From the NCBI GenBank assembly GCA_016930645.1, contig JAFGGH010000022.1, positions 1 to 33,067 on the forward strand: a stretch of DNA of 33,067 nucleotides. Reading direction: 5' to 3'. The position numbers and the translations under genes were made by a program. Below the pieces are notes generated by a model. The model worked only from the letters and a program-made list of their open reading frames with translations, searched no databases and was not told the DNA's origin. Positions 2,985-31,010 of this stretch are shown here, in pieces. This DNA comes from Sedimentisphaerales bacterium (GTDB taxonomy: Bacteria > Planctomycetota > Phycisphaerae > Sedimentisphaerales > Anaerobacaceae). How positions within the stretch are numbered: position 1 is the first letter of the stretch; every line of letters begins with the position of its first letter.

Positions 2985-3007
2985 GTGAGGCTTATTTGAG
3001 GCACAAG

Positions 3008-3802
3008 ATGCGAGATACGAAATACGAATTGATTGATACGCATGCTCATCTGGCATTTAAGCCGTTTGTTGATGAAGCGGGCGCGGTGCTTGACAGGAGT
3101 ATCGAGGCCGGCGTTACAGGCTGGATTACGGTCGGTACGGATTTGGAGGAAAATCGCAAGAGTATCGAACTGGCCGAGGAATATGACAATCTCTATGCGG
3201 CGATTGGTTTCCATCCGCACATAGCTAAGGACATTACCGAAGATGACTTAGCAGAACTTGAAAAGTTAGCTCAAAATGAAAAGGTGGTCGCTCTCGGTGA
3301 GATGGGACTGGACTTTCACTATAATTTTTCAGGGCAGCCTGCACAAAAGGAGTTGTTTGCCAGGCAGCTTGAGATAGCTAAAAAACTTAATCTACCTGTT
3401 ATTATTCACAACAGAGAGGCTTTTGAAGAAACTATGCGAATCCTCGATGAATGCGGCAGGGGGATGGAGAAAATTGTTTTTCACTGTTTCGGGGGAAATG
3501 CCGAACAGGCGAAAGTCATAATTGATAAAGGCTGGTATATCTCCTTTACCGGAGTGGTGACATTCAAGAACGCGCATACCGCCCGTGAGGCGGCAAAAGC
3601 AACGCCATTAGACAGGCTGATGCTTGAGACAGATTGTCCATATATGTCGCCGGAGCCGGTGAGAAAACAGAAAGTCAATGAGCCTGCGCTGATGGTTCAC
3701 ACTGCAAAGTTCCTTGCCGAACTGAAGGGTGTTTCATTTTCTGAATTTGCAGATATTACAACCCGAAATGCCAAAAGCTTCTTTGGTATTAGAGCAATTT
3801 AA
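3008..3802 (+). CDS. tatD: TatD family metal-dependent hydrolase (DNase)
   Basis: 264 residues from the chosen start, normal for TatD, an amidohydrolase-fold 3'-5' exonuclease. Metal ligands are visible: DTHAHL (His12, His14), GEMGLDFHY (Glu), IIHNRE (His), VFHCFGG (His) and LETDCPYMSPEP (Asp). Start choice: ATG 3008 has TTGAGG at 2996-3001, six bases upstream; a TTG at 2996 is possible but less likely. Family members usually begin close to the LIDTH motif. Here seven extra residues precede it and they are encoded by a heptad repeat (3011-3040), so the repeat has supplied or replaced the 5' end of the gene. Confidence 0.93.
   Translation: MRDTKYELIDTHAHLAFKPFVDEAGAVLDRSIEAGVTGWITVGTDLEENRKSIELAEEYDNLYAAIGFHPHIAKDITEDDLAELEKLAQNEKVVALGEMGLDFHYNFSGQPAQKELFARQLEIAKKLNLPVIIHNREAFEETMRILDECGRGMEKIVFHCFGGNAEQAKVIIDKGWYISFTGVVTFKNAHTAREAAKATPLDRLMLETDCPYMSPEPVRKQKVNEPALMVHTAKFLAELKGVSFSEFADITTRNAKSFFGIRAI
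3011..3040 (+). repeat. Heptad repeat copy forming the tatD 5' end
   Basis: Successive 7-mers CGAGATA, CGAAATA, CGAATTG, ATTGATA begin three bases into tatD. Close relatives of the first two units occur at 20749-20783, 27302-27329 and 30322-30343, and inverted at 20336-20359. Confidence 0.7.
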
Positions 3803-18971: not shown

Positions 18972-19295
18972 TCAGTTATTTTTAAGTATATCTATACCCG
19001 TAGCCATTTTTAACGTGTGCCGCAGGCTTTCAGTTGCTACACCTGACGGCTCGGTGGTAAATGGAACCACTATTACGCAGGGAAGCGGCTTATTTTGTAC
19101 CGAAAGGAAAACCGCTTCAGCTTTTTCTGCTATGTTCTCAGCTAAAATCACAAGCGTATATTTATTTTCGAGCACCTCTTTAGCGGTACTTATAATCGAA
19201 TCAGTCTCATCACCGACCGCATACGTATCGACACCCAGAGCCGAAAACGGCGTCGCAAAGTCAACATTTCCTATTGCTGCTATTTTACCTTCCAT
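18972..19295 (-). CDS. ntpG: V/A-type ATPase subunit F (NtpG)
   Basis: 107 residues, the size of subunit F (called NtpG in Enterococcus hirae), a Rossmann-like domain that sits on the central stalk with D. Seen: KIAAIGNVDFATPFSALGVDTYAV at the start, LVILAENIAEKA, and PCVIVVPF. The ATG overlaps the ntpC stop by one base (TAATG), and ntpA starts ten bases after its stop, as expected of a tightly packed operon. Confidence 0.93.
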   Translation of the reverse strand: MEGKIAAIGNVDFATPFSALGVDTYAVGDETDSIISTAKEVLENKYTLVILAENIAEKAEAVFLSVQNKPLPCVIVVPFTTEPSGVATESLRHTLKMATGIDILKNN

Positions 19296-20335
19296 TATTC
19301 ACCCAAACGGTCGAGTATTAATCTTGGCTCAAGGCTGTTTTTCTTGGCTGTTAAAATTAGTCTTAGTGTTCTTATTTCGCCTTCTTTGGTCATCAGGTAC
19401 GCTATTAACGGCTGAGGGCCGGCTGTTATCTGGGAAGTCTGTTTAAGAAAACCGTCGACGAATTTGTCGCAGTTAGCTTCGAGTTTTAAGAATGAATTAT
19501 TGCTCGTAAGATAGCTTGCGCCGGAATTAATTATTTCAAAATATGGTGTCGCTGCGAATAACGCGGCGACCGATTCGAAGCCGATATCCAGTCCGTGTTT
19601 AAGACTTTCAATTTCCAGGTATCCGCCTTCGATAAAGACGTCTCTCAATTCGGACGCTGTAAATTTAAGACGCAGCATTGCCTTTATGTTGAGAATGTCG
19701 ATTTGTATTCTGAACAGTCCTTCGAGAAAGATGTTTTTAAGCTCGATGACTTTTGCGAGTTTATAATGAGCCTGGCAATTATCTATGGCAAAGTCTATCC
19801 AGCGGACGTTCTTTTCATTTTCATAAAAAGAAAGCACCGCGCATTCGATTCCTTCCTGCATGTATTCAGGCAGAGGAGAATAGTTTTCCTGCTCGAATAT
19901 CTGTTCGAATTCTTCGGCGGGGATGCTTCCTTCGTTACTGTAATCGGTGCCGATTTGGCGGTCAGTGAGCTTGCGTCTTAAGGCGAGACGGAGGTTGGCA
20001 AAATCGTCTTTTTCGCGAAGCAGCTCCAGCAGTGCATCATCCATTATCAAATTGGCGAAGAGTTTGCGAATGTCACTTCTTCGCGCAATGAGCATTTCCT
20101 CGACTTCATTGAAATCCTTACCGCCGCCTGCAACCGAGTATTCCGTAGAGCTCAACGAATCGACGGCGGAAGCGAAGTCAGGTGCGTTTGCCATATCCAA
20201 AAGGGTCGAGCGGTTAATCAATTGTGTTTCCAATGCACGCACCTTAGCTGTTGCAAAGGTGTACCGCCAGTCATCACCACCGATAGGCGGATACGTATTA
20301 AAATCAATCCTCGGTTGTTCAGTTGTAATCAGCAT
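19295..20335 (-). CDS. ntpC: V/A-type ATPase subunit C (V0 d / AC39 type)
   Basis: 346 residues, the funnel-shaped subunit that couples the central stalk to the membrane rotor. Recognised by length, position between E and F, the internal repeats of helical units with Tyr/Phe-rich tips, and IDILNIKAMLRLKF, the 'D..N...L.R.K' motif repeated in this family. The ATG follows directly on a heptad array (20336-20359), which leaves only ACGAG as a possible ribosome site. Confidence 0.9.
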   Translation of the reverse strand: MLITTEQPRIDFNTYPPIGGDDWRYTFATAKVRALETQLINRSTLLDMANAPDFASAVDSLSSTEYSVAGGGKDFNEVEEMLIARRSDIRKLFANLIMDDALLELLREKDDFANLRLALRRKLTDRQIGTDYSNEGSIPAEEFEQIFEQENYSPLPEYMQEGIECAVLSFYENEKNVRWIDFAIDNCQAHYKLAKVIELKNIFLEGLFRIQIDILNIKAMLRLKFTASELRDVFIEGGYLEIESLKHGLDIGFESVAALFAATPYFEIINSGASYLTSNNSFLKLEANCDKFVDGFLKQTSQITAGPQPLIAYLMTKEGEIRTLRLILTAKKNSLEPRLILDRLGE

Positions 20336-20359
20336 CTCGTATTTCGTATCTCGTATCTT
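20336..20359. repeat. Heptad array, left arm around the S23 gene
   Basis: Units CTCGTAT, TTCGTAT, CTCGTAT, CTT. TTCGTATCTCG (20343-20353) is an exact inverted copy of CGAGATACGAA (20770-20780). Confidence 0.78.
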
Positions 20360-20368
20360 GAGCAGTTC

Positions 20369-20731
20369 TTATCCCAATTTCTTAATAAGGCTTCTCAGCA
20401 TACGAGATTCATGGTCTATCTTCTCCAGCAATAAGTTTTTTCTATTCTCATCGATATAGTTTAATTCAAATGAGATTTCAATTTGTGTTTCCAGCTCAGC
20501 ACACGAACCTAATGATATGTACAAAAACCTTTTATATTCTTTATTATGGAATCTGTTAAATCCTTCAGCTATATTCGACGGTATTGATATAGAGCACCGT
20601 TGCATTTGAGCAGTCAGGCCATACTGTTCCTTTTGAGGAAATCCCTGAACGGCCTTGTACACTTCTTTTACAATTGTTTTCCCCAACTGCCATATATCCA
20701 GGTCTCTAAAATTTTTTATCTTTTCATTCAT
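20369..20731 (-). CDS. S23/IVP-type four-helix-bundle protein inserted in the ATPase operon
   Basis: 120 residues. KIKNFRDLDIWQLGKTIVKEVYK, IPSNIAEGF and YISLGSCAELETQI are the signature of the S23 ribosomal intervening-sequence protein family (TIGR02436-like), a four-helix bundle also related to the Avd protein of diversity-generating retroelements. Its biochemical role is unsettled. It has no known link to ATPases, is AT-richer than its neighbours, and sits between ntpE and ntpC, which are adjacent in standard ntp operons. Inverted heptad arrays at 20336-20359 and 20749-20783 bracket it closely. No clear ribosome site. I infer a small insertion cassette. Confidence 0.9.
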   Translation of the reverse strand: MNEKIKNFRDLDIWQLGKTIVKEVYKAVQGFPQKEQYGLTAQMQRCSISIPSNIAEGFNRFHNKEYKRFLYISLGSCAELETQIEISFELNYIDENRKNLLLEKIDHESRMLRSLIKKLG

Positions 20732-20748
20732 TAACGGTATTATAAAAT

Positions 20749-20783
20749 CGAGATACGCTTCACGAATCCCGAGATACGAATAA
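20749..20783. repeat. Heptad array, right arm around the S23 gene
   Basis: Units CGAGATA, CGCTTCA, CGAATCC, CGAGATA, CGAATAA. It overlaps the 3' end of ntpE and supplies its last residues (VSRDS) and stop codon. Inverted relative to 20336-20359 (11 identical bases). Confidence 0.78.
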
Positions 20784-21362
20784 CTCCTTTGCCAGCTCTA
20801 TTTCAAGCTCCTTTTTGGCCTTATCCAGCAGTACGCCGATGGACACGTTGTTCTGTATCTGACCTCTTCTTAGAATAAAGCCGCCTCCGATATTCATTCT
20901 CTGCTCGGAAAGTCTCAAATTGCCATGGTAACCCGGGCCAAGCTCACGGTTGGCCTGCTTTACAAATTTAAAGTCGATTCTCTTCTCGTTAGTATCGACA
21001 ACAACCTCTTCATCACCGGTCTCGACAGCTTCGTGCATGAGCTTTTTCATTAATGATAAGTACTCTTCGTCACAGAGCTTTGAAAATTGCTCTTTCGCTT
21101 TAACGAAGACCTCATCGAGCAACTTTCTTTTCTGGGCTAAATACTGTTTTGCGATGTCCATTCTTGCCGCCGAGAGCATACGCGCCATTTTGTCCTCAGC
21201 CGCTTTTTGGGCGAGGGCTGCGGTTTGCTCTTTGAACTGGGCAAGCTGCTTGTCGAGCTGCTTTTGCTCGGCCTGTTGCTTTTCATCGGCCTGGCGTTTA
21301 ATTTCTTCCGCCTCAGCGCGAGCATCGGATAATATTTTTTCTGTTACCTGTTCAGCTTTCAT
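20760..21362 (-). CDS. ntpE: V/A-type ATPase subunit E (peripheral stalk)
   Basis: 200 residues. The N-terminal half is a long charged coiled coil (AEAEEIKRQADEKQQAEQKQLDKQL) and the C-terminal half the globular head, with LSEQRMNIGGGFILRRGQIQNNVS close to the usual end pattern of subunit E. Pairs with the small NtpF-type subunit to form the stator. The final five residues VSRDS come from a heptad repeat, so the original C-terminus has been altered. Weak ribosome site. Confidence 0.9.
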   Translation of the reverse strand: MKAEQVTEKILSDARAEAEEIKRQADEKQQAEQKQLDKQLAQFKEQTAALAQKAAEDKMARMLSAARMDIAKQYLAQKRKLLDEVFVKAKEQFSKLCDEEYLSLMKKLMHEAVETGDEEVVVDTNEKRIDFKFVKQANRELGPGYHGNLRLSEQRMNIGGGFILRRGQIQNNVSIGVLLDKAKKELEIELAKELFVSRDS

Positions 21363-30321: not shown

Positions 30322-30359
30322 TGTACGAAATGCGAAATACGAATCCCGATTCATCGGGA
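30322..30359. repeat. Heptad array with TCCCGA palindrome upstream of pbuG
   Basis: GTACGAA, ATGCGAA, ATACGAA, then TCCCGATTCATCGGGA (30344-30359), the last identical to 17167-17182. Shows heptads and palindrome as parts of one element. Confidence 0.75.
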
Positions 30360-30360
30360 C

Positions 30361-30386
30361 TCAAAATGACCAGCTGGTCAGTTTGA
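30361..30386. promoter_or_regulatory. 26-base inverted repeat between tRNA-Leu and pbuG
   Basis: Perfect core TGACCAGCTGGTCA (30367-30380), extended by TCAAA / TTTGA on both sides with one mismatched pair. Ten bases after the tRNA-Leu 3' end. It could be a processing or termination hairpin for the tRNA, although there is no T tract, or an operator for pbuG. Confidence 0.55.
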
Positions 30387-30395
30387 GCAATTTAC

Positions 30396-30478
30396 TGCGA
30401 GCGATAGGAGTCGAACCTACACGTCCAAAGGACACAAGGACCTAAACCTTGCGCGTCTGCCAGTTCCGCCACGCTCGC
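30396..30478 (-). tRNA. tRNA-Leu (anticodon TAG)
   Basis: 83 bases on the minus strand. Acceptor GCGAGCG with CGCTCGC, discriminator A, anticodon stem CAAGG/CCTTG around TTTAGGT (anticodon TAG, reads CUA and CUN by wobble), the long variable arm typical of class II tRNAs, and T loop TTCGACT. The CCA end is not encoded. Confidence 0.96.
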
Positions 30479-30483
30479 TTTTT

Positions 30484-30603
30484 TCGTATCGCGTATCGCG
30501 TATTGCGTACAGCGATTCGTACTTCGTCATTTGTTATTCTGTCTTCCGTCATCTGCCTGCCGCGGCGTAGTCCCGATAGCTTCTATCGGGACGAAGCCGG
30601 GTC
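30484..30603. repeat. Heptad array grading into a GCCGCGGCG...CGAAGCCGGG hairpin element
   Basis: In steps of seven: CGTATCG, CGTATCG, CGTATTG, CGTACAG, CGATTCG, TACTTCG, TCATTTG, TTATTCT, GTCTTCC, GTCATCT, GCCTGCC, GCGGCGT, then the hairpin TCCCGATAG-ctt-CTATCGGGA (30571-30591) and CGAAGCCGGGTC. It runs from next to tRNA-Leu into the 3' end of xseB. Confidence 0.75.
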
Positions 30604-30822
30604 GTCTGTCTTCTGTTCCGTGATTTTCTCAATCCGTTTTTCAGCTTGTTGCAGTATTGTCCGGCAGTGTTTTATCAATGCCATTCCTCTTTCATACTGC
30701 TTGAGGCTGTCGGCCAGGGCGATATCACCTTCTTCGATATCACCGACTATCTTAATAAGCTCTTTAATCGCCTGCTCGAATGACAGCTTACTTATATCGT
30801 TTTGTGTATTTTTCTTTGCCAT
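30583..30822 (-). CDS. xseB: Exodeoxyribonuclease VII small subunit
   Basis: 79 residues. LSFEQAIKELIKIVGDIEEGDIALADSLKQYERGM is the family signature of XseB, which binds XseA to form the single-strand-specific exonuclease VII. AAAGG about seven bases before the ATG. The last seven residues, DDPASSR, and the stop codon come from the repeat element at 30571-30603, so the natural C-terminus was overwritten or extended. xseA is not in the window. Confidence 0.93.
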   Translation of the reverse strand: MAKKNTQNDISKLSFEQAIKELIKIVGDIEEGDIALADSLKQYERGMALIKHCRTILQQAEKRIEKITEQKTDDPASSR

Positions 30823-30835
30823 AATCAGCCTTTAT

Positions 30836-31010
30836 CTTTCTGTTTTCTGTCGTCATTCATCCGTTATCTGCCTGCCGCGGCGTAGTCCCGATGACTTCTA
30901 TCGGGACGAAGCCAGGCCCTCTGTCGTCCGTCTTTTATCGTCAGTTTTCAGTCGTCTGTCCTCTGTTATCCGCCTGCCGCGGCGTAGCTCTTCAGAACGA
31001 AGCCGGGTCA
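30836..31010. repeat. Two more copies of the heptad/GCCGCGGCG repeat upstream of xseB
   Basis: Copy two: CTGCCTGCCGCGGCGTAG (30868-30885), TCCCGATGACTTCTATCGGGA-type hairpin (30886-30906), CGAAGCCAGG. Copy three: GCCTGCCGCGGCGTAG (about 30972-30987), shorter loop CTCTTCAGAA, CGAAGCCGGGTC. Between them run pyrimidine heptads GTCGTCC, GTCTTTT, ATCGTCA, GTTTTCA, GTCGTCT, GTCCTCT, GTTATCC. Confidence 0.75.

Follow-up and report, generated by a model that had tools for sequence, protein, structure and literature searches.

S23 genes, so far tied to insertions in rRNA, lie mostly between matched, inverted arrays of heptanucleotide repeats within protein operons, and the unit formed by S23 and its arrays resembles an mRNA form of the rRNA intervening sequence (IVS). 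We know of no established function for the S23 ('four helix bundle protein') genes, which are present in very many environmental bacteria, nor, to our knowledge, is there a known cause for the heptanucleotide repeats that have been noted for years. The link between S23 and the heptads offers a testable explanation for both, and it would turn the rRNA IVS from a ribosomal curiosity into one outcome of a general protein-operon element.

The window, i.e. the whole 33,067-nucleotide stretch of DNA that was analysed, carries on its minus strand a V/A-type ATPase operon in which the genes are transcribed in the order: subunits I, K and E, S23, and subunits C, F, A and B. As had been predicted from the sequence, an S23/IVP four-helix-bundle gene of 120 aa (20369-20731, minus strand; PF05635, 130 bits against a cut-off of 33.8) splits ntpE, the host gene upstream (20760-21362, minus strand; PF01991), from ntpC, the host gene downstream (19295-20335, minus strand; PF01992). 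Two opposed period-7 arrays lie close to the S23 ORF, at a distance of approximately 9-17 bp. The 5' (upstream) array (20749-20781, minus strand), with the units CGAGATA CGCTTCA CGAATCC CGAGATA CGAA, was read directly, being too degenerate for TRF and legible by eye, whereas the 3' (downstream) array (20334-20360, minus strand) was recognized by TRF with period 7 and 3.6 copies. Each contains one arm of an exact 11-bp inverted match (20343-20353 and 20770-20780), which was found again. Both arrays run into the host genes: the upstream one overlaps the last codons and the stop codon of ntpE, and the downstream one reaches the start codon of ntpC, so the end of the NtpE protein (...ELF-VSRDS) and the bases ahead of the ntpC ATG consist of array sequence. 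Tandem 7-bp units in intergenic DNA, characteristic of the STRR-type heptanucleotide repeats, are thus present by both TRF and a period scan. S23 is the sole ORF of the element, and it matched no transposase family (Pfam) or transposase fold (Foldseek).

Taken singly, the window locus is only modestly remarkable, lying slightly above chance for inverted flanks: its inverted-flank score (the inverted local-alignment score of the flanks, used as the measure of layout) is 22, a value matched by 2.4% of the ORFs in 509 kb of its own genome. Its significance comes from the comparison with other S23 loci. Eight S23 genes, each on a different contig, were found in the same genome, nearly all of them between inverted arrays by eye, and each array pair has its own motif. 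In the window's family, 55 of 60 genomes contain S23 genes, and 27 of 36 S23 loci reach a score of at least 22, compared with 11 of 458 own-genome ORFs, the window S23 itself among them (Fisher p=4e-28). A single scan of the contig collection yielded 80 further S23 loci from phyla including Bacteroidota, Nitrospirota, Omnitrophota, Chloroflexota, Bacillota and Pseudomonadota, as well as from a Methanophagales bin, with inverted arrays in 68 of the 77 that could be scored.

In total, across approximately 20 phyla represented mostly by metagenome-assembled genomes, 100 of 118 S23 loci carry inverted, motif-matched arrays, versus 17 of 205 other ORFs at the same loci (p=7e-46); six of the remaining S23 loci have direct arrays only and 12 have neither. 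The threshold of at least 22, picked after the data had been seen, was applied equally to the other-ORF and cross-locus controls, and arms paired across different loci reached it in only 3.9% of cases. The inverted heptad layout is confirmed and extends well beyond the single locus first noted. Both neighbours could be called at 104 loci, and at 82 of these S23 points in the same direction as the two. Cyanobacterial plasmids show the layout too, e.g. nrdB-S23-nrdA with GGGAGTA arrays in Nostoc, and no phage carrier of S23 was seen in a phage search, which gave three weak Avd matches only.

Period 7 is a property of the arrays as a class. Autocorrelation of the S23 flanks peaks at lags 7, 14, 21 and 28, and the mean array score is 13.2/13.7 for period 7, while other periods give 4-7; apart from a minor period-8 component, period 7 alone is prominent. 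On the sense strand, the upstream arrays are G-rich (47/56) and the downstream arrays C-rich (43/56).

At ntpE-ntpC, S23 is absent from all 29 other relatives examined, and the window genome alone has it there; a genus-level search for closer relatives yielded the window genome itself and no other. Several of the 29 relatives have an ntpE-ntpC gap of 11-31 bp, in some cases with heptad scraps left. Two other genera have S23 at the ntpC-ntpF junction, a third keeps a remnant of it at ntpF-ntpA, and some further relatives have inverted arrays without S23 at ntp junctions. The same pattern was observed in a pair of congeners (G015 and G050): eight S23 regions of G015 were compared with G050, which is covered in part, and the five that map by both flanks to G050 stretches are all empty and array-free there. 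The flanks of these filled and empty sites are roughly 72-86% identical, with junctions too diverged for a target-site duplication to be read. Three G015 sites contain simple inserts of 418, 532 and 573 bp, and two others carry extra sequence.

The unit that is gained or lost is S23 with both arrays; the empty alleles fix this unit and not the direction of change, and at each empty site gain rather than loss is presumed. Such sporadic presence among relatives is also a feature of the 23S rRNA IVS. The original prediction of a mobile cassette that lands in protein operons gains support as regards mobility, both from S23 at other ntp junctions in three relatives (one a remnant) and from the empty congener sites. 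Empty alleles and flanking repeats elsewhere, whose joint absence had been named beforehand as counting against that prediction, were both found.

These empty sites also bear on the simplest explanation, namely that S23 is an ordinary, vertically inherited operon gene accompanied by a hairpin terminator or a regulatory stem. The junctions groEL-S23-dnaJ and tRNA-S23-tRNA, kept between genera, would agree with it. However, it is contradicted by the absence of S23 from ntpE-ntpC in every one of the other relatives and by the five empty sites in the congener, and the grouping of the window S23 with proteins of another phylum (see below) also speaks against it; we regard it as highly improbable.

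Across junctions and phyla, the motif of the arrays goes with the S23 lineage. For pairs of S23 proteins with a similarity of at least 0.6 at unrelated junctions, i.e. restricted to locus pairs sharing nothing homologous within 1.5 kb, motif similarity was 21.7, compared with 12.0 for permuted labels (maximum 15.7 of 3000) and 9.2 for orientation-flipped arrays, and motif likeness among similar S23 proteins was seen across phyla as well. On the S23 tree, which is built on few columns and has half of its inner forks unsupported, the window S23 groups with three S23s of Nitrospirota and with the ntpC-ntpF S23 of another genus of the family (G023) with an SH-aLRT of 94, and the label 'window family' requires 15 changes. 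A motif of the GAAGCGTATCTCG type is common to most members of this group. We discarded the idea that a single universal heptad is recognized, as the motif differs between S23 lineages.

The arrays might alternatively be ordinary heptanucleotide repeats arising from polymerase slippage, S23 merely ending up in or near them. Period 7 is indeed the commonest tandem class in the window's own genome (3.9 per 100 kb versus 0.5-1.8 for other periods), and heptads are over-represented in many bacteria (PMC4692102, PMC4679880), the known examples being the STRR of cyanobacteria, GGGNATC of Xanthomonas and Nostoc, and TAACTGA of Beggiatoaceae. Like the arrays described here, the published repeats are intergenic tandem 7-mers, some of them in inverted pairs, but S23 is unmentioned in either paper (PMC4692102, PMC4679880), whereas our arrays are tied to the S23 lineage. 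Slippage is disfavoured, and in our opinion improbable, given that matched pairs in inverted orientation are peculiar to S23, that the arrays are missing together with S23 from all five empty congener sites, and that the motif follows the S23 lineage.

Among the closest known relatives of this arrangement are the IVSs of 23S rRNA in Coxiella and Leptospira, which likewise consist of an S23-family ORF between complementary ends, occur sporadically and are inserted where a cut is harmless (PMC4990558). In the Coxiella IVS, an SD sequence and three GACAGAT heptads directly precede the S23p ORF, the terminal stem comprises 28 bp, and the first heptad is where RNase III cleaves (PMC4990558). The gene family, the repeat period of 7 and the position of the array relative to the start codon are therefore the same as here, and the heptads before the ORF, the first of which is the site of the RNase III cut, make the analogy with the rRNA IVS, put forward in the original prediction, well founded. 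The authors of that study drew no generalisation from the heptads, and they judged S23p not to be expressed in vivo because excision removes the SD sequence (PMC4990558). Our literature search, with preprints and most subscription papers outside its scope, found no paper stating a general link between S23 and heptads; the Coxiella paper was the only one to touch on it. The units described here differ from the 23S rRNA IVS in that they are located in protein and tRNA operons, outside an rRNA helix, that their array motif varies between S23 lineages, and that their cleavage is deduced by analogy. The 23S rRNA IVS is by definition placed inside an rRNA gene, whereas the window S23 lies between ntpE and ntpC, and an Rfam search of the window gave two tRNAs only, with no rRNA gene.

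We lean, if only slightly, towards the reading that S23 and its two inverted heptad arrays form a mobile mRNA counterpart of the 23S rRNA IVS, the stem of which is cut by RNase III. The element would be small (about 0.4-0.6 kb, comprising the S23 gene and both flanking arrays) and would land in the gap between operon genes, mostly along the direction of transcription, therefore leaving both neighbours intact. In the transcript, the upstream array would pair with the downstream array, with the S23 ORF in the loop, and a double-strand RNase (RNase III) would cut the stem at the arrays, parting the S23 message from the host messages. No ligation would be needed, as in rRNA, in the case of mRNA because the cuts would fall between ORFs. 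The S23 protein, whose fold is pentameric and Avd-like, would probably bind the arrays or the array RNA and act in trans to maintain or spread both the element and the solitary arrays that share its motif; the movement itself would proceed by some form of transposition. If the RNA step is true, bacterial mRNAs carry removable inserts without the need of splicing.

The predicted pairing of the arms is in agreement with this mRNA counterpart. In 114 loci, the RNA duplex energy of a locus's own arms has a median of -51 kcal/mol, versus -32 kcal/mol for arms combined across loci (p=4e-28). The window arrays, like the complementary ends of the 23S rRNA IVS, are able to form a stem, and they pair in both the minimum-energy and the centroid RNA folds. 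The expectation that the ntpE-S23-ntpC transcript folds was borne out only as far as the predicted pairing of the arms, whereas the fold of the whole transcript does not exceed shuffled sequence in stability (z=-0.58). At groEL-S23-dnaJ, no ortholog-level covariation was detected, since the motif has been conserved in that clade: arms exchanged between species pair as well as the native ones do, and the pairing thus reflects co-divergence between lineages and not site-by-site covariation. Since some loci have direct arrays only and others neither, the stem is not strictly required. These results, i.e. the 18 of 118 loci without inverted arrays, the unremarkable stability of the whole fold and the lack of ortholog covariation, count against the mRNA counterpart, as do the S23p of Coxiella judged unexpressed, the common solitary arrays and the absence of a transposase.

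The fold of the protein is informative with respect to its putative role. The AlphaFold2 model of the window S23 (pLDDT 93.6) has its best Foldseek match in 2GSC (TM 0.89), an S23 structure with five chains, followed by 2RLD; further matches (TM 0.77-0.79) are to Avd, the accessory protein of diversity-generating retroelements (DGR), alone (4DWL) and in a ribonucleoprotein (8UB7). Because the fold matches these structures, a pentameric, nucleic-acid-binding role of S23 is plausible. Despite the shared fold, S23 differs from the DGR protein in that its match to PF22296 (bAvd) is weak and below the cut-off (24.4 bits versus 40), and no reverse transcriptase was identified beside the window S23. 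The median array length of 36-38 nt depends on the detection threshold, and we therefore do not claim a match of the pentamer to five heptads.

REP elements with RAYT genes (REPtrons) also consist of a gene bracketed by inverted repeats, with relatives of the repeats occurring solo throughout the genome, and the RAYT protein is a Y1 transposase. By analogy, the main rival to RNA cleavage is a DNA-level system in which the arrays, as single- or double-stranded DNA, serve as substrates for copying and spreading, S23 is a helper, the inverted layout serves movement and no RNA is cut. The window's own genome contains many solitary heptad arrays that lack S23, and their mean best score against the S23 arrays of that genome is 33.7, compared with 26.8 (maximum 29.4 of 40 draws) against those of other genera of the family and 21.0 against other phyla, although this rise could partly reflect base composition. 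The six loci with direct arrays only, and the S23 loci not co-directional with their neighbours, also fit a DNA-level process. On the other hand, S23 is a four-helix bundle for which Foldseek gave no catalytic fold match, a Y1 (HUH) transposase is absent from the window element, which encodes S23 only, and the prevalence of inverted arrays and of co-directional S23 need not result from a process acting purely on DNA. We consider this DNA-level system unlikely, though a serious contender.

Extending the mRNA counterpart to its full range, we tentatively propose, with rather less than even confidence, that S23 with inverted heptad arrays constitutes a widespread mobile class (approximately 20 phyla, one archaeal bin among them), which would hide between the genes of polycistronic mRNAs by being excised from the RNA. 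In this view, the rRNA IVS would be a special case of this class, and the solitary heptad repeats of cyanobacteria, xanthomonads and others would be its non-autonomous offspring.

Some further observations concern the surroundings of the arrays. On a Nostoc plasmid (L277, 343-3345), S23 separates the two genes for the ribonucleotide reductase subunits, lies on the strand opposite to them and has strong inverted GGGAGTA arrays; on a Pseudanabaena plasmid (L280, 401-2565), it lies between cas6 and cas4 with long AAAGCTA/AAAGCCA heptad arrays that are direct, not inverted. A non-S23 ORF of the window's own genome (L072, 5900-6660) is placed between inverted CACGAAT-type repeats with an inverted score of 50, possibly a different cargo carried by arms of this type. 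Some ntp junctions of relatives contain other inserts (L043 and L045 at ntpE-ntpC, L044 at ntpC-ntpF), namely an unidentified ORF of approximately 330 aa, a TlpA/thioredoxin-like lipoprotein and a membrane protein, and one-sided heptad arrays occur near some of them.

Within the window itself, a tRNA gene (30396-30478, minus strand) lies between inverted heptad arrays without S23 (30324-30563), and these arrays are similar to the ones at another S23 locus in this genome. A solitary array, CAAGATGCGAGATACGAAATACGAATT (3004-3030), with the motif of the window S23's arrays, is found at the start of the ORF at 2996-3802. Repeated CTGCCGCGGCGTAGTCCCGAT...ATCGGGACGAAGCC blocks occur amid period-7 CTGTC-type sequence at 30550-31000, and the contig end (32981-33067) is formed by a perfect 19-bp tandem repeat, GCGCTCTCACAAGCCTGGA, in 4.6 copies.
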